Part shown: positions 4,845-54,105 of the stretch, piece by piece
Position numbering within the stretch: the first letter of the stretch is position 1
Layout of the letters: the number at the start of each line of letters is the position of its first letter
Position numbers and translations under genes: made by a program
The notes under the pieces: model-generated
The model's database searches: none
Told to the model about the DNA's origin: nothing
Seen by the model: only the letters and a program-made list of their open reading frames with translations
Assembly (NCBI RefSeq): GCF_000379685.1
Contig: NZ_KB903272.1
Span: forward strand, 310,624 to 374,623
Origin: Catelliglobosispora koreensis DSM 44566
Lineage (GTDB): Bacteria; Actinomycetota; Actinomycetes; Mycobacteriales; Micromonosporaceae
Reading direction: 5' to 3'
DNA: 64,000 nucleotides

Positions 4845-5435
4845 GTGACCAGGATCGTGTCAGGACGCTACGGAGGGCGACGGCTAAGCACTCCCGAGGG
4901 CCGGCATACGCGGCCGACTTCAGATCGCGTCCGGGAGGCTCTTTTCTCCACTTTGGACACGCTGATGGATATCGAAGGATCTCGCGTCCTCGATCTGTTC
5001 GCGGGGTCGGGCGCGGTTGGGCTGGAGGCGCTGTCGCGTGGAGCGGCTTATGCCCTGCTCGTGGAGTCAGAACCTCGTGCCGTCAAAGCGATCCGGGCCA
5101 ACATCTCGCTGCTGAAGGCCTCCAGTGCGCACGTGTCGAGCGGCAAGGTCAGCGTGATCCTTGGCGCGGGCAACCCACAAACGCCATATGACCTGGTATT
5201 TGCCGATCCGCCGTATCCGCTGAGTGAGGAAGAACTCACCGCCGTGCTGACCGCCCTCGTGACGGGCAAATGGCTCGCCGAGGATGCCGTTGTGGTGCTG
5301 GAACGCTCCAGCCGCTCTCCTGAGCCGTCCTGGGTGGAGGGGGTCACGCTGGAGCGCGGCCGCCGTTACGGTGAGTCCGCGCTTTGGTACGGTCGGGCCA
5401 CTGAAACATCTGGGCTGAAGGGCGAAACGCAGTGA
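4845..5435 (+). CDS. rsmD: 16S rRNA (guanine966-N2)-methyltransferase RsmD
   Basis: SAM-dependent methyltransferase that modifies G966 of 16S rRNA. The 196-residue protein has the family N-terminus (MTRIVSGRYGGRRL), RPTSDRVREALF, the SAM-binding loop LDLFAGSGAVGLEALSRGA at about 46-64, and the catalytic DPPY. It starts with GTG and overlaps coaD by four bases (GTGA), the usual actinobacterial rsmD-coaD pair. Confidence 0.95.
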   Translation: MTRIVSGRYGGRRLSTPEGRHTRPTSDRVREALFSTLDTLMDIEGSRVLDLFAGSGAVGLEALSRGAAYALLVESEPRAVKAIRANISLLKASSAHVSSGKVSVILGAGNPQTPYDLVFADPPYPLSEEELTAVLTALVTGKWLAEDAVVVLERSSRSPEPSWVEGVTLERGRRYGESALWYGRATETSGLKGETQ

Positions 5436-22912: not shown

Positions 22913-26841
<3,929 letters not shown>

Positions 26842-26915
26842 ACCCGGGTTTACTCACCCCTTCCCTCGCCCCGTCTCTCCCGCCCCTGCGTCCCGCTCCT
26901 GCTTCCCGCTCCTTT

Positions 26916-27049
26916 CGGCCCTGCTTTCCGTCCGGCCCTGCTTTCCGTCCGGCCCCGGGTCCCGTCCGGCCCCGGGTCCCGCCCGGCCTCTCATCCGTCC
27001 GCCCCGCGTCCCGCCCGGCCCCGGGTCCCGTCCGGCCCGCTTTCCGCCT
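26916..27049 (+). repeat. 17-bp imperfect tandem repeat, about eight units
   Basis: Units CGGCCCTGCTTTCCGTC (26916, 26933) and CGGCCCCGGGTCCCGTC (26950, 26967 with one change, 27016) recur at 17-base spacing, with diverged or 15-base units between. Confidence 0.75.
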
Positions 27050-27149
27050 GTCCTGGCCCGCCTCTATCGGCCCTGCTTCCCGCCCCGGCGCGCTGCCCTT
27101 CCGCGCCGTTTCCCGCCACTGCAACTCCTTGCCCTCCCTCCTCATGCGT

Positions 27150-27211
27150 GATCCACATCCCTTGAGACGTGATCAAAAGGCGGTTTGATCACGTCTCAAG
27201 GGATGTGGATC
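27150..27211. repeat. 62-bp perfect palindromic element, copy 1
   Basis: Two exactly complementary 28-base arms (27150-27177 and 27184-27211) enclose the loop AGGCGG. Arms begin GATCCACATCCC and end at the loop with GATCAAA/TTTGATC. A second copy with the same loop is at 53916-53977. Confidence 0.95.
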
Positions 27212-27334
27212 TCACCTTTGGCTGTGGATCAAGATGAAGTCCCTACCGCAACCCCTCGGACGGCGCGGGTCCAGGTCCCAGCGACCGGCGGGCGTGGCAA
27301 GCCGGGCGGAAAGCGCGGACCCGCCACCAGTCGA

Positions 27335-27406
27335 GGCCGGGACGCGCGGACATGGAGGGCCTCGCGGGAGGGACGGTCGCAACCACGGCGGACATCGGAA
27401 AAGGAA
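27335..27406 (-). repeat. dispersed 72-bp repeat, copy A
   Basis: The reverse complement matches 39946-40017 with about ten differences. Shared blocks are TTCCGATGTCCGCCGTGGT, ACCGTCCCTCCCGCGAGGCC and ATGTCCGCGCG. Here it is non-coding; the other copy lies in the 5' coding region of the M23 peptidase gene. Confidence 0.85.
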
Positions 27407-27813
27407 GCCGCAGCGAGCCACGGACCTGATGCACAGGGGGCCGGCAGCTGCTGGGCAGCCCGGACCCGGAAGAGCGGGGGCGTGAAGGTCTCACGGGATC
27501 GGGATGCGAGCGGCAAGGAAGCGCAGGTCGGCGGGACGCGTGGGCGGGGAAAGCGGGATCGGAGGCGGCAGGGCAAACAGGCGATGCAAGCGGGCAGGGC
27601 AAACAGGCGGGCAAGGCAAGTGGGCGAGGCAAGTGGGCGAGGCAACGGGCAAGGCAAGCGGACAGGGCAGGCGGATCGGGGAGCGGATGGCCGGAGGTGG
27701 GGACTGGGCGCGCGGGGAGGGAAAAACGGCAGGAAGTGGGCATGAAGGCAGGGCAGGCGTGGAGCGGCTAACCTAGCGGGGGCGATTGGCTACCGACGAG
27801 CGGATGTTTTGCT

Positions 27814-29337
27814 GTGTTTGACACCTTGAGTGACCGGCTGTCCGGGATCTTCACGAAACTGCGGGGCAAGGGGCGGCTGAGTGATGCCGACATTGACGCG
27901 ACCGCGCGGGAGATCCGGCTGGCGCTGCTGGAGGCAGACGTCGCGCTGCCGGTGGTCAAGAGTTTCATTCACCGGCTTAAGGAGCGGGCGCGCGGCTCTG
28001 AGGTGTCGCAGGCGCTGAACCCAGCTCAGCAGGTCATCAAGATTGTGCACGAGGAACTGATCGGGGTCCTCGGTGGCGAGGCGCGGCGGCTGAATTACGC
28101 GAAGAATCCGCCGACGGTCATTATGCTGGCCGGTCTGCAAGGGTCCGGTAAGACGACGCTGGCCGGAAAGCTAGCGAAATGGCTTAAGGCGCAAGGCAAT
28201 CAGCCGCTTCTGGTCGCGGCTGACTTGCAGCGGCCCAATGCTGTCAACCAGTTGCAGGTGCTCGGGCAGCGCGCCGGGGTTGAGGTTTACGCACCCGAGC
28301 CGGGCAATGGCGTGGGCAATCCGGTTGCGGTCGCTAAGGAATCGATTGAGTACGCGCGGCGGCACATGCGCGACATCGTCATCGTCGACACCGCCGGCCG
28401 GCTGGGTATCGACTCGGAGATGATGCAGCAGGCTGCCGACATCCGCGACGCCGTGGAGCCCGACGAGATCATCTTCGTCATTGACGCGATGGTCGGTCAG
28501 GACGCGGTTACTACCGCTGAGGCGTTCCGGGATGGGGTCGGGATCACCGGTGTCGTGCTGTCCAAACTGGACGGTGACGCTCGCGGTGGTGCGGCGCTTT
28601 CCGTGCGGGAGGTGACCGGGCAGCCGATCCTGTTCGCGAGCACCGGCGAAAAGCTTGAGGACTTTGACGTTTTCCACCCCGACCGGATGGCTAGCCGCAT
28701 CCTGGGCATGGGTGACGTGCTGACCCTGATCGAGCAGGCTGAGGCCGCCTTCGATGAGGATCAGAAGGAGAAGATGGCGTCGAAGCTGCTCGGTGGTGAG
28801 CAGTTCACGCTGGAGGACTTCCTGGACCAGCTGATCGCGGTCCGTAAAATGGGCCCGATCGCCAACGTGCTGGGCATGATGCCCGGCATGGGCCAGATGA
28901 AGAATCAGCTGGCGGATCTGGACGACAGCCACTTCGACCGGGTGACGGCGATTATCCGCTCGATGACGCCGGCGGAGCGTACGACGCCGAAGATTATCAA
29001 TGGTTCCCGTCGTGCCCGCATCGCACGCGGTTCCGGTGTCACGGTGATGGATGTCAATCAACTGCTCAACCGCTTTGAGCAAGCGCAGAAGATGATGAAG
29101 CAAATGGGCGGCATGATGGGCCTGCCCGGCTCGCGCCGCAAAGCCACGAAGTCGCCGAAGAACAAGCGCAAAGGCACCAAGGGCGGCGGCGGTGGCCCGC
29201 GCAATCCCGGCGGTTTCCCCGGTGGCGGTTTCCCCGGCGGCATGCCGCAGCTTCCGCCAGGCATGGGCGGCGACGGCTTCAACGCCCCCAAGCTGGACTT
29301 CGGCAAGTTCCTCAAGCGTGACAAAGACGAGGAATAA
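27814..29337 (+). CDS. ffh: signal recognition particle protein Ffh
   Basis: GTPase of the signal recognition particle; binds signal sequences and 4.5S RNA and docks on FtsY. 507 residues from GTG 27814. N domain, G domain with GLQGSGKTT, DTAGR and SKLDGDARGG, then the Met-rich M domain (GMMPGMGQM, MMKQMGGMM) and a Gly/Pro-rich tail. No conventional ribosome-binding site is obvious in the purine-rich sequence before it. Confidence 0.96.
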   Translation: MFDTLSDRLSGIFTKLRGKGRLSDADIDATAREIRLALLEADVALPVVKSFIHRLKERARGSEVSQALNPAQQVIKIVHEELIGVLGGEARRLNYAKNPPTVIMLAGLQGSGKTTLAGKLAKWLKAQGNQPLLVAADLQRPNAVNQLQVLGQRAGVEVYAPEPGNGVGNPVAVAKESIEYARRHMRDIVIVDTAGRLGIDSEMMQQAADIRDAVEPDEIIFVIDAMVGQDAVTTAEAFRDGVGITGVVLSKLDGDARGGAALSVREVTGQPILFASTGEKLEDFDVFHPDRMASRILGMGDVLTLIEQAEAAFDEDQKEKMASKLLGGEQFTLEDFLDQLIAVRKMGPIANVLGMMPGMGQMKNQLADLDDSHFDRVTAIIRSMTPAERTTPKIINGSRRARIARGSGVTVMDVNQLLNRFEQAQKMMKQMGGMMGLPGSRRKATKSPKNKRKGTKGGGGGPRNPGGFPGGGFPGGMPQLPPGMGGDGFNAPKLDFGKFLKRDKDEE

Positions 29338-39921: not shown

Positions 39922-40812
39922 ATGCGTGGCCTCGTTTGTTTGATATTCCTCTTTCCGATGTCCGCCGTGGTCCCTACCGTCCCTCCCGCGAGGCCGTCAT
40001 GTCCGCGCGCCCCAGCCTTTTCCGCGAGCGCTCCCGGACCGGCGAGGTTGCCGGGCCAGCGTTTGCCGGCCTTTCCCGCATACGCTCCCGGACCGGCGCC
40101 GGCGAGGTTACAAGGTCCGCGTTTGCCGGCCTTGCCCGCGGGCGCTCCCGGAATGGCGAGCGCTCTGGGCGAGCCTGTCCCGGTCCTTTCCGTGTGCGCT
40201 GCCGGATTGATGCGGCTTCCCGGGGATGCGCTCGGTTCCGGGGAAACGGCGCGAGGGCCGGTGACGGGGCTCGGTGTGGAGCGTGTTCTGGTGCCTTTCC
40301 TGGGGCGCGCCATCGGGACGGGAGTGGTTGAACGGTGGGGGTGGCCGGTGGAAGGGGTGGTGGTCCGGCGGTTTACGGTCGGGCCGCATCCGTGGTCGCC
40401 GGGGCATCGTGGCGTCGACATCGCCGCGGAAGCCGGTGTGCCGGTGCGGGCAGCGGGCGATGGGATCGTCCACTTTGCTGGGTGGGTCGTGTCACGGCCC
40501 GTCGTGAGTGTCGCCCACAGCAACGGCACCCGCACGACTTATGAACCAGTTGAGCCTTCCGTGACCGCGGGACAGACCGTCGTGACCGGACAGATCATTG
40601 GCGTTCTGCTCACGGGACACGATGGCGCGCTGCACTTTGGGCTCAGACAGGGCGAGACCTACCTCGATCCGCTGGTGCTGCTCGGCCGAGGGAGGGTCAG
40701 GCTGCTTCCTTTAGCAAGGCCGGCAAGCCGGAGGCGAGCCGGGCGAAGTCCTCAGCCGTGTTGTAGATCTGCGCACTCAACCGCAGATAGCCGCGATCAC
40801 GAAACGGCATGA
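39922..40812 (+). CDS. M23 family metallopeptidase with repeat-built N-terminus
   Basis: 296 residues from ATG 39922 (GAGG nine bases upstream). A hydrophobic start (MRGLVCLIFLFPMSAVV) may be a signal peptide. Residues about 9-32 are encoded by the dispersed 72-bp repeat, and about 36-78 by Pro/Ala/Gly repeats. The catalytic domain (about 125-258) has GHRGVD (His162, Asp166) and His238 in HFG, the LytM zinc ligands, and resembles Rv2891. The last 38 residues are antisense to the convergent aminotransferase gene, so the normal stop seems lost. Peptidoglycan endopeptidase role is inference from the family. Confidence 0.8.
   Translation: MRGLVCLIFLFPMSAVVPTVPPARPSCPRAPAFSASAPGPARLPGQRLPAFPAYAPGPAPARLQGPRLPALPAGAPGMASALGEPVPVLSVCAAGLMRLPGDALGSGETARGPVTGLGVERVLVPFLGRAIGTGVVERWGWPVEGVVVRRFTVGPHPWSPGHRGVDIAAEAGVPVRAAGDGIVHFAGWVVSRPVVSVAHSNGTRTTYEPVEPSVTAGQTVVTGQIIGVLLTGHDGALHFGLRQGETYLDPLVLLGRGRVRLLPLARPASRRRAGRSPQPCCRSAHSTADSRDHETA
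39946..40017 (+). repeat. dispersed 72-bp repeat, copy B
   Basis: Matches the reverse complement of 27335-27406. In this location it is read as coding sequence of the M23 peptidase. Confidence 0.85.
40029..40160 (+). repeat. in-frame tandem repeat, units of 54 and 60 bp plus a partial
   Basis: Units start at 40029, 40083 and 40143 with CGCTCCCGGA. Shared blocks are GGCGAGGTT and GCGTTTGCCGGCCTT. Unit lengths are multiples of three, encoding APGPARLPGQRLPAFPAY-like repeats. Confidence 0.8.
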
Positions 40813-47619: not shown

Positions 47620-48333
47620 TTGACCGGTCAGTTCAAGCGAGTGGTTCTGAAGCTTTCAGGCGAGGTTTTCGGCGGTGGCGCCGTTGGCGTTGATCCCGAC
47701 GTGGTGGCCGGCATCGCCCGGCAGATCGCCACTGTGGTGCGCGCGGGAGTGCAAGTCGCGGTCGTGGTGGGCGGCGGCAACTTCTTCCGTGGTGCGGAGC
47801 TTCAGAAACGCGGGATGGACCGGGCGCGTGCTGACTACATGGGAATGCTCGGCACGGTCATGAACTGCTTGGCATTGCAGGACTTCCTGGAGAAGGAAGG
47901 GATCGAGACGCGCGTGCAGACCGCCATCACGATGGCTCAAGTCGCCGAGCAATACATTCCGCTGCGCGCCATCCGGCACCTGGAAAAGGGCCGGGTCGTC
48001 ATCTTCGGCGGCGGCGCTGGCATGCCCTACTTCACGACTGACACGGTCGCGGCCCAGCGTGCGCTGGAGATCCGGGCCGATGTCGTGCTCATGAGCAAGA
48101 ACGGAGTGGACGGCGTTTACAGCGCTGACCCGCGCACCAACCCTGACGCGGTAAAACTCGACCAGATCACCTCGCGGGAAGCCATCCGGCAAGGGCTTCG
48201 GGTGGCCGATGCCGCGGCGCTCAGCCTGTCCGGGGAAAATGGGCTACCGATGCTGGTTTTCGGGGCTGAGGGGGACGACATCGCGCGCGCGTTGCGTGGT
48301 GAGAAGATCGGGACGCTCATCACCCCGTCCTGA
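47620..48333 (+). CDS. pyrH: UMP kinase
   Basis: Phosphorylates UMP in pyrimidine synthesis. About 237 residues from TTG 47620, which has GAGGAAGG eight bases upstream; GTG 47611 and 47602 are in frame alternatives. Family motifs: [41 protein letters not shown] and the GTGNPYFTTDT-like block ([10 protein letters not shown]). Confidence 0.95.
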
Positions 48334-48338
48334 ACGCT

Positions 48339-48387
48339 AGTGAGGTATCGCGTGTCGGGCCGCAGGCCCGACACGCGATACCTCACT
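48339..48387. terminator. 23-bp perfect hairpin between pyrH and frr
   Basis: Two 23-base complementary arms (48339-48361, 48365-48387; outer bases AGTGAGGTATC, inner GTCGGGCC) enclose a GCA loop. No T-run follows on either strand. Likely a terminator or RNase-processing site. Confidence 0.75.
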
Positions 48388-48431
48388 TGCGGTCCTAGTG
48401 TGAACTTGACTTGAGAGATTCGGAGAAGCCC

Positions 48432-52362: not shown

Positions 52363-53898
52363 GTGCAAATTACGGGTACGGGACACGCCAGCATGCGCAT
52401 CGACACCCCAGCCGGGTCGATCCTCTGTGATCCCTGGGTGAACCCAGCGTATTTCGCCTCCTGGTTCCCCTTTCCGGACAATTCCCAGCTCGACTGGGAG
52501 TCCTTGGGCCAGTGCGACTACCTCTACGTCTCGCACTTGCACCGCGACCATTTCGACGCGGCACATCTCAAGCGGTTCGTGAGCAAGAAGGCGACCGTTC
52601 TGCTCCCCGAGTACCCGACGTCGCAGCTTGAGGACGAACTGCGCGACTTGGGCTTCACGAAGTTCTTCAAGACCGTGAGCGACGAGGTGCACGAGCTCGA
52701 TGGCGGGCTCAAGGTGCTCATCCAGGCGCTGATCAGCCCGACCGACGGCCCGATTGGCGACTCGTCACTGTGGGTGGAATATGACGGCGTGCGCGTCCTG
52801 AACCAAAATGACGCCCGGCCAACGGATCTAGCCTCGTTCAAGGAACTCGGTCACGTGCACGCGCACATGCTGCAGTTCAGTGGTGCGATCTGGTATCCGA
52901 TGGTTTACGAGCTGCCGCAGACCGCGAAGACCGCCTTCGGCAAGCAGAAGCGTGAGCGCCAGTTTGACCGGACGTTCCGTTACATCGACGATCTTCAGGC
53001 TAGCTGGGTGTTCCCGATCGCTGGGCCGCCTTGCTTCCTCGATGACGAACTGTGGCACCTCAACGATATTCACGGCGACGAGGGCAACATCTTCCCGGAT
53101 CAGTCGGAGTTCATGAAGGAGTATCCGGGCTCCAATGGTGTCGTGCTGCTGCCGGGCAGTGTCTCGACGCTGACGCAAACCGATTGCAGCACAACGCATC
53201 CGACGGATCCAGACGAATACTTCGCCAACAAGGAAGCGCACCTGAAGGCATACCGCGATCGTCAGCGCGTGACCATTGAGAAGGAGAAGGCTTCCTGGTC
53301 GCACCCTGAGGTCGATGTGCTCGCGGGCATGAAGGCGCAGATCGAGCCGCTGCTCGACGAATCCGTCTACCTCGCCAAGGGAGTCGGCGGTCCGGTCAGG
53401 TTCGATCTCACGTCCCCCGACGGCGAGGTGCTCGAGTCGATCGTCATTGACTTCCCAGGCAAAGAAGTTCGGGTGTACGACGAGGAGAAGGTCCGTTACC
53501 GGTTCCGAACCGAGCGCCGCCTTGTCGAGCACCTGCTCCACATCGGTGAAGGTGACTGGGTCAATTCGCTGTTCCTGTCCTGCCGGTTCTCCGCCGCCCG
53601 CATCGGTCAGTACAACGAGTTCGTCTACGCGTTCTTCAAGTGCCTGTCCGAGGAGCGCCTGCAGTATGCCGAGGGCTGGTATGAAAGCCAGCGTCCCGAT
53701 GCCGAGGACATCACGATGGGCGGCTGGACGTTCCAGCGCCGCTGCCCACACCTCAAGGCCGACCTGACGCGCTTTGGCATCGTCGAGGGCAAGACGCTCA
53801 CGTGCCAGTTGCACGGCTGGAAGTTTGACCTATCGAGTGGGCGCTGCCTGACGAGCGTCGGGCACGAGATCCGTTCCGTGCCCGCCGCTTCATCGTGA
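52363..53898 (+). CDS. metallo-beta-lactamase-fold hydrolase fused to a C-terminal Rieske domain
   Basis: 511 residues from GTG 52363. The N-terminal half has HLHRDH at 58-63, the HxHxDH metal motif of the metallo-beta-lactamase fold (UlaG-like). The C-terminus is a Rieske [2Fe-2S] domain with ligands C461, H463, C481 and H484 (CPHL ... CQLHGW). This pair of domains is also found in CMP-N-acetylneuraminate hydroxylase, but there the Rieske part comes first. Substrate unknown. An oxygenase-like role is inference. Confidence 0.85.
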   Translation: MQITGTGHASMRIDTPAGSILCDPWVNPAYFASWFPFPDNSQLDWESLGQCDYLYVSHLHRDHFDAAHLKRFVSKKATVLLPEYPTSQLEDELRDLGFTKFFKTVSDEVHELDGGLKVLIQALISPTDGPIGDSSLWVEYDGVRVLNQNDARPTDLASFKELGHVHAHMLQFSGAIWYPMVYELPQTAKTAFGKQKRERQFDRTFRYIDDLQASWVFPIAGPPCFLDDELWHLNDIHGDEGNIFPDQSEFMKEYPGSNGVVLLPGSVSTLTQTDCSTTHPTDPDEYFANKEAHLKAYRDRQRVTIEKEKASWSHPEVDVLAGMKAQIEPLLDESVYLAKGVGGPVRFDLTSPDGEVLESIVIDFPGKEVRVYDEEKVRYRFRTERRLVEHLLHIGEGDWVNSLFLSCRFSAARIGQYNEFVYAFFKCLSEERLQYAEGWYESQRPDAEDITMGGWTFQRRCPHLKADLTRFGIVEGKTLTCQLHGWKFDLSSGRCLTSVGHEIRSVPAASS

Positions 53899-53915
53899 TC
53901 CACATCCCGAGGTGA

Positions 53916-53977
53916 GATCCACATCCCTCCAGACGTGATCAAAAGGCGGTTTGATCACGTCCCAAGGGATGTGGATC
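53916..53977. repeat. 62-bp palindromic element, copy 2
   Basis: Same AGGCGG loop and 28-base arms as 27150-27211, with three adjacent mismatches in mid-arm. A truncated extra arm (TGATCCACATCCC, 53895-53907) lies just before it. It sits between two convergent genes. Confidence 0.93.
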
Positions 53978-53985
53978 ACCAACGG

Positions 53986-54105
53986 GCGCGCCCGCACGAT
54001 GCGCGCCCGCACGATGCGCGCCCGCACGATGCGCGCCCGCACGATGCGCGCCCGCACGATGCGCGCCCGCACGATGCGCGCCCGCACGATGCGCGCCCGC
54101 ACGAT
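53986..54105 (+). repeat. eight perfect tandem copies of a 15-bp unit
   Basis: GCGCGCCCGCACGAT repeated eight times without a mismatch, then a partial GCGCG. It starts eight bases after palindrome copy 2. All frames stay open because 15 is a multiple of three, but no start signal or coding context supports a protein. Confidence 0.97.

Follow-up and report, generated by a model that had tools for sequence, protein, structure and literature searches.

The 62-bp palindrome at 27150–27211 of the 64,000-nucleotide stretch of DNA analysed here (the window) is the mere middle of a larger unit, an array of 85–124 bp that comprises five or six half-sites CGTGATC(C/A)A at fixed spacings. The pattern of conservation suggests, with a probability of about 0.75, that the arrays of this family are binding sites for a putative oligomeric, sequence-specific protein. 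The usual reading of short intergenic palindromes in bacteria is as hairpins or as miniature transposons. In this case, the dozens of copies together with a second genus permit a direct test, which favours independent protein half-sites at fixed positions and points to these, rather than to a hairpin, as the object of selection.

From either edge inwards, an array runs through an outer box, an inner box and a core half. Successive half-sites of one side are placed head-to-tail in steps of 19 and 21 bp, and the two sides face each other head-to-head at the centre. In the first copy, the single-box side consists of the inner box B (27148–27160, + strand, GTGATCCACATCC). It is followed by the dyad core (27167–27194, ACGTGATCAAAAGGCGGTTTGATCACGT), the inner box C (27201–27213, − strand, GGATGTGGATCTC) and, 19 bp outside box C on the two-box side, the outer box D (27220–27232, − strand, GGCTGTGGATCAA), with a CTTMRTC-type edge at 27233–27239 (− strand, GATGAAG on the + strand). 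The second copy has an identical core (53933–53960), a two-box side made of the outer box A (53895–53907, + strand, GTGATCCACATCC) and the inner box B (53914–53926, + strand, GAGATCCACATCC), and the inner box C (53967–53979, − strand, GGATGTGGATCAC). As described in the earlier note on this DNA, the 28-nt arms of the first palindrome are 100% complementary around the 6-nt loop AGGCGG, the copy at 53916–53977 shares this loop and pairs 25 of its 28 arm positions, and both palindromes sit between likely genes. The best alignment of the two copies is inverted (27148–27239 against 53888–53979, 92 nt, 88%), because each carries an extra box on one side only, the right side at 27150 and the left side at 53916.

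The genome holding the window (G000, 7.69 Mb in 44 contigs) contains 61 matches to the 28-bp core with at most 3 mismatches, located at 60 places, one of them counted on both strands, while the reversed control pattern has no match in this genome; the repetition greatly exceeds chance expectation. An outer-box search for the frame, defined as TGATCCACATCC, a fixed 40 bases and GGATGTGGATCA with up to 3 mismatches, returned 78 frames, type-2 elements counted in. The proposal of a dispersed family is thereby confirmed, and the two copies of the window are far from being the only ones in the genome. When the gap was left free, 79 inner pairs in the G000 sequence analysed were separated by exactly 40 bp; a further 8 pairs, at 38 bp, combine an outer box with a core half, and the 5 at 22, 39, 41 and 43 bp are type-2 elements. 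Over the whole of contig C23 the box-to-box steps are 19, 53 and 19. At the array ends, the outer box stands at 19 bp in 84 of 158 cases and at 31 bp in a single one of the 158. Among the 61 matches, 22 carry it on one side and 27 on the opposite side, 10 have it on both sides and 2 lack it altogether. Relative to a one-sided outer box, the centre AGGCGG reads one way in 24 copies and the other way in 22, with 10 unclear, so its orientation is random.

Mean identity among the sites in the G000 sequence analysed is 0.90 in the boxes, 0.94 in the core halves and 0.46 in the spacers (80 of 82 sites, the two without two core halves being left out). Conservation of the sequence used in a search is partly built in, and such figures need cross-checks. 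Copies found through the core keep the boxes (50–60 of 60 at 10 of the 11 box positions) and the core is retained in copies found through the boxes (0.94, compared with 0.46 in the spacers), so neither is solely a product of the search.

The same alignments bear on the alternative that the palindrome is an RNA hairpin selected for its folding, whether as a terminator, a stable small RNA or a protector of mRNA ends, which appears very improbable. The window copy folds to −52.5 kcal/mol, compared with −16.7 kcal/mol for shuffles, and the sites lie mostly at gene ends; strong folding of single copies is, however, explained by the boxes forming a dyad. In the 60-copy alignment, a change on both sides of the hairpin as written is seen in 25 cells; shuffles give 39.7, and all 500 of them reach 25. 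The T/G variant of the left inner box (box B) does not track the A/C variant of the right one (box C). Over 80 sites, pairs in the inner spacers (223 against 223.0 permuted) and in the boxes (865 against 863.6) are at the permuted level, the innermost positions show a deficit (227 against 294.5), and inside the core pairs are slightly more numerous than in permutations (733 against 721.6, a level attained by 0.8% of them). The Hamadaea spacers likewise have no excess of compensatory changes (87 pairs where permutations give 81.0, with 12% of them reaching the observed number). An apparent anti-pairing of the spacers (101 against 121.1, with 20 of 5000 permutations as low) was discarded, as it was not repeated on the 80 unoriented sites. 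In addition, the extra one-sided box is without a partner, a T-tract is absent at the first copy, and no Rfam family matches the window at gathering score, the three microRNA-precursor matches in five loci being sub-threshold. At the first copy, no intrinsic terminator was found in the array itself, while the region 26800–27900 has 1 elsewhere, compared with 0.7 in shuffles. The selection on structure that had been proposed is thus at odds with covariation below that of shuffles and with spacer and box pairing close to permuted values, the only excess being the slight one inside the core.

The perfect arms reported earlier are true of the copy at 27150 and atypical of the family. All five variable spacer positions are paired in only 6 of 60 copies, including this one, against 1.3 expected, a number reached by 1 of 5000 permutations. 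The perfect-palindrome group may reflect occasional palindrome-templated correction, and together with the core pair excess it counts against the protein-site reading.

The G000-type core was not found in 60 relatives (36 from the same family and 24 from the same order). Hamadaea, a member of the Micromonosporaceae, has 10, 9 and 5 frames in three genomes and 0 in a fourth (G084). Its frame is also 64 bp long, with GTGTC..GACAC as the core halves instead. An exact match to both boxes, with the gap left free between 20 and 50, is present in 4 of 250 family genomes, namely G000 and the three Hamadaea, and among the places listed (for G000, the first places only) every such match is 64 bp long. 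The same exact-box scan of the named collection, which may omit records very near the window's own genome, returned six stretches, all of them in two Hamadaea assemblies. Over 24 Hamadaea copies, mean identity is 0.95 in the boxes, 0.95 in GTGTC, 0.40 in the spacers and 0.44 in the centre.

Five Hamadaea positions are common to two or three species, as judged by matching neighbour genes. In nine orthologous pairs the GTGTC halves, which were not used in finding them, agree at 85 of 90 positions, compared with 70 of 108 in the spacers, 79 of 162 in the centre and 16 to 35 of 60 in the ungapped flanks. The boxes agree at 209 of 216, a figure favoured by the search, as these copies were found by boxes with a fixed gap and box identity and the absence of indels are therefore partly built in. 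Copies that drifted freely after insertion would not show such selective retention of the core halves at orthologous places. The arrays seem to turn over in place. At the position of array L126, present in one species, what occupies the convergent border in G084 is, by eye, another palindrome rich in GATC, and in G103 it is a longer unrelated insert, while the position of L122 in G117 holds an apparent decayed half (by eye).

No DNA-binding regulator was found among the 10 proteins that neighbour the five conserved Hamadaea positions; these are enzymes, a translation-factor GTPase and families of unknown role. The best neighbour shared across genera, a DUF1015 gene (L124 and L137 against L031, 64–65% identity), was rejected as a conserved cross-genus position, the sharing being about at chance level by our own estimate. 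Four further genera gave one weak profile match each (L086, L089, L090 and L091), and these were rejected as well, since no array was seen in them by eye. L086 (G036:C1:4088844–4088900), from another genus of the family, contains direct repeats GGGCTGCGGATCACGCCCC that resemble the outer box. In G103, locus L120 has a palindrome GGATCAGGGTTCTGGGTCGAATCTTG.. with its complement just left of the array at 5001.

The distribution between genera could also be read as that of a mobile REPIN-like or MITE-like family, whose boxes would be transposase-recognised ends, conserved since only good-ended copies spread. The 78 frames in G000 against 5–10 or none in Hamadaea, the few neighbour genes common to both genera and the one-sided and two-sided forms agree with it, as do the variable centres, a property of REPINs according to the accessible part of one source (PMC8049555). 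Such an origin is nonetheless improbable, and the REP or MITE interpretation offered at first loses ground on several counts. The search of G000 for RAYT gave one partial Y1_Tnp match only, an 85-aa frame at C1:1131538 covering positions 76–121 of 121, and the closest listed array is about 80 kb off. Target-site duplication was sought at 48 polar sites with words of 3, 4, 5, 6 and 8 over a range of offsets, with no clear excess over permuted flanks, and the 60-copy alignment has no conserved GTAG or CGTC tetranucleotide at the stem foot. The second copy has no plasmid match and the sole match in viral contigs (L171) is a pair that arose by chance within a protease-like gene (named by eye); a plasmid or a phage origin was accordingly rejected. 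The orthologous Hamadaea copies retain GTGTC at a fixed place while centre and flanks change, for which selection for jumping cannot account, and the G117 counterpart of L122 reads as a loss and not as an empty target. Recent spread, which the earlier note had inferred from the perfect arms, finds no support in spacers that are 46% identical among copies, compared with 90–94% for boxes and core, or in Hamadaea copies that occupy orthologous places.

The arrays are centred on a switch in strand composition such as is otherwise seen at replication origins. The flank read toward the first array (26842–27147) is C/T-rich (C 0.53, G 0.22, skew −0.41) and contains degenerate 17-bp repeats, and the flank on the other side (27240–27813) is G/A-rich (G 0.45, C 0.26, skew +0.28). 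GC skew, right minus left, has a mean of +0.361 and is positive at 76 of 78 arrays, compared with a mean of −0.006 and 52 of 111 positive at the middle of array-free spacers; the flank and spacer controls all come from one contig, C23, and the flank sets of 78–82 sites mix type-2 with type-1 elements, with some flanks overlapping. The cumulative-skew minimum lies within 50 bp of the centre in 43 of 78 arrays and 6 of 117 controls, and 50 of 82 arrays, compared with 8 of 117 control spacers, have tandem repeats no more than 300 bp away. Of 160 flanks, 52 carry the motif AAGCGGG, one of several of this kind, in the outward direction and 1 carries it inward, and the skewed flanks point outward regardless of gene direction. 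In Hamadaea, the skew is positive in 19 of 23, 21 of 23 and 17 of 22 cases at 60, 120 and 225 bp, with means of 0.120, 0.121 and 0.103 that are weaker than in G000; in this set orthologous copies are counted separately, flanks include coding sequence and there is no control of its own.

Other repeats accompany the arrays. The dispersed repeat GAGGGCCTCGCGGGAGGGACGGTCG... near the first array (27355–27401, + strand) points away from it; this repeat has 26 matches in G000, 20 of them within 800 bp of a listed array (coordinates by eye), 18 of those 20 being oriented away from the array. The second window copy of this repeat (39952–39998, − strand, GAGGGCCTCGCGGG) has no listed array nearby. The type-2 elements, GATCTTGAGG..GTGATCCACAGCCCGAAAAGGGTGATC and its mirror, are found 93–242 bp from 12 arrays, and the type-2 half has 12 matches in G000. 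Those at L003:1338–1401, L047:1775–1838, L140:13128–13191 and others have the core GGGTGATC..GATCACCC and outer GATCTTGAGG boxes. Contig ends of G000 lie within about 250 bp of an array at C7:84, C11:83, C44:133 and C4:314735 of 314952, which is what would be seen if the assembly breaks at arrays or their repeats. Four imperfect direct repeats of about 60 bp occupy 39985–40212 of the window at steps of 54, 60 and 54. The window also contains a palindrome at 48332–48394 (C23:358958) with 30-nt arms at 93% and a 3-nt loop, which includes GCGTGTC..GACACGC and is not surrounded by a skew switch (−0.03). A second palindrome family, CTTTGCTCTGCACC..GGTGCAGAGCAAAG, has three copies with variable inner stems on the one contig C23, at 240399 (L066), 278590 (L067) and 496974 (L076), and could be a true RNA hairpin family.

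Two alternatives address the flanks directly. One is that a bound palindrome, whatever its primary function, stalls or breaks replication and that repair running outward produces the G-rich leading strands, the tandem repeats and the flips of the centre. This would fit a skew that flips at the array independently of gene direction and is G-rich outward as at an origin, the frequency of tandem repeats, the random orientation of the centre, the surplus of perfect palindromes and the contig ends that adjoin arrays. It is considered quite unlikely: sixteen other strong palindromes of C23 show no such switch (mean 0.05, 10 of 16 positive), spacer pairing does not correlate with the skew switch (rho 0.17, p 0.14), and the avoidance of divergent spacers described below is left unexplained. 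The other holds that a chromosome-organising protein binds the array, as at MatP, SlmA or Noc sites, and that the outward G/A-rich repeats guide a DNA translocase in the manner of FtsK-orienting sequences, transcription being irrelevant. Dozens of sites per chromosome, flanks that both point outward whatever the gene directions, the bias of AAGCGGG and the avoidance of divergent spacers are all in line with such a role. It is judged unlikely, however, as most of nine motifs are without strand bias outside the arrays in C23 (AAGCGGG 77 against 61), the lone biased motif there being GGGGAGGG (7 against 0), and three Hamadaea genomes have only 5–10 frames and the fourth none.

Gene contexts were assigned by a crude codon-usage gene caller, and 46 of 82 sites have confident genes on both sides, 19 convergent, 24 co-directional and 3 divergent. 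Control spacers of at least 200 bp in C23 are 36 convergent, 75 co-directional and 43 divergent. The arrays thus avoid divergent spacers (3 of 46, compared with 43 of 154; p 0.002) and favour convergent ones (19 of 46, compared with 36 of 154; p 0.02), and a looser threshold applied to the first 61 matches agrees (26 convergent against 5 divergent). RNA as it would be transcribed toward the array, measured on 100-nt stretches, contains at least 1.5 times as much C as G in 76 of 161 flanks but in only 2 of 138 gene-end controls, and has 22.6 YC steps per 100 compared with 14.1. Its folding is weaker than that of the controls (−0.323 against −0.375 kcal/mol per nt) despite a higher GC content (0.681 against 0.639). 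The standard of comparison was a C-rich, G-poor and unstructured tract of 70–80 nt or more, and rut sites are described as C-rich, G-poor, weakly structured RNA in the part of the source available (PMC6407284). The array-directed RNA thus corresponds to the description of a Rho-loading tract. The gene for Rho is present, as G000 and three Hamadaea genomes gave two matches each; in G000 the paralogues are at L174:2388–3656 and L176:1235–3028 (422 and 597 aa, longest frame).

If the array is bound by a putative oligomeric protein, as preferred here, each subunit would take up about two helical turns, and a filled array would form one large nucleoprotein complex. Tentatively, such a complex might act as a barrier to transcription from both directions at the ends of transcription units. 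A polymerase approaching from either side would make C-rich, G-poor, weakly folded RNA on which Rho could load; it would then be halted by the occupied array and released by Rho. The tandem repeats and occasional centre flips may be by-products of a tightly bound palindrome. This combined reading of a bound array and a barrier draws on the register, the conservation of boxes and core, the skew switch, the C-rich tracts, the gene context and the encoded Rho. Against it, flanks facing gene starts have as strong a C-rich tract (mean 0.235, 28 flanks) as those facing gene ends (0.198, 45 flanks), a result not foreseen by termination at gene ends alone. Moreover, the co-directional sites number 24 of 46, and the second window copy, whose single-box side abuts a 15-bp tandem repeat (53986–54105), is without a G-rich right flank (skew −0.09). 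The earlier suggestion of a terminator fails in its intrinsic form, no T-tract being present at the first copy, and survives as a protein barrier fed by Rho-type C-rich tracts.

A broader and more doubtful extension is that the arrays are bidirectional gene-border insulators across the genome, each a phased array for a dedicated, fast-evolving putative DNA-binding protein, with flanking tracts that load Rho or guide another motor, and that the core changed from GATC to GTGTC between the genera while the 64-bp frame was kept. The concrete question is whether a bound array ends transcription, steers a motor or starts DNA synthesis. No description of the array was found in the accessible parts of the literature on Hamadaea and Micromonospora repeats, REPIN/BIME elements, palindromes with GC skew, Streptomyces inverted repeats, palindrome instability, chromosome-organising proteins, rut sites and Rho roadblocks, although one may still be published.

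Several known systems resemble the array in part. It has direct and inverted boxes like the DnaA-box clusters of oriC and datA-like sites, and TGATCCACA is one base off the DnaA box TTATCCACA. DnaA boxes were rejected as an explanation, as the dnaA–dnaN region has boxes of the TTATCCACA/TTGTCCACA type and no TGATCCACA between both genes; one lone TGATCCACA occurs outside the origin, at L083:15271. A secreted glucanase-like gene (L083:8048–9424, translation by eye) occupies an unusual place between dnaA and the DnaA-box-rich stretch before dnaN. Plasmid iteron arrays are direct half-site repeats at steps of about 20 bp, a layout shared by the array, which differs in its dozens of chromosomal copies and its head-to-head symmetry.

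The REP, REPIN and BIME elements of proteobacteria are described, in the accessible parts of two sources, as palindromic, intergenic, present in many copies and located mostly at convergent or co-directional gene borders (PMC3733652, PMC8049555), and the former defines REPs, in the part available, by a GTAG or CGTC tag at the stem foot (PMC3733652). As far as these texts go, the array is similar to them in being multicopy, palindromic and intergenic, in lying chiefly at convergent or co-directional borders, and in its variable centre and vertical persistence. However, those elements comprise one or two stems of 20–40 bp, whereas the array has five or six phased half-sites over 85–124 bp, lacks the tag, is not accompanied by a detected RAYT, does not conserve pairing, is centred on a skew switch and is actinobacterial. 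Rho-dependent terminators with rut sites, as described in the available part of the source, share the C-rich, G-poor, less folded RNA ahead, while the array differs in its symmetric tracts on both sides of a palindrome, even where there is no gene end. Since the features that define REP/REPIN elements, MITEs, intrinsic terminators, DnaA clusters and Rfam families were not found in it, the array is filed under none of them.

The operator sets of SlmA, Noc, MatP and ParB, to the extent that their descriptions were available, are alike in having many conserved sites across the chromosome. The known sites of these proteins are single dyads of 12–16 bp, unlike the multi-box array with its constant steps of 19 and 21 bp. 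The array has conserved dyad sites that are independent of RNA pairing, as in an operator set, and by analogy the array would work like a multi-site operator set.
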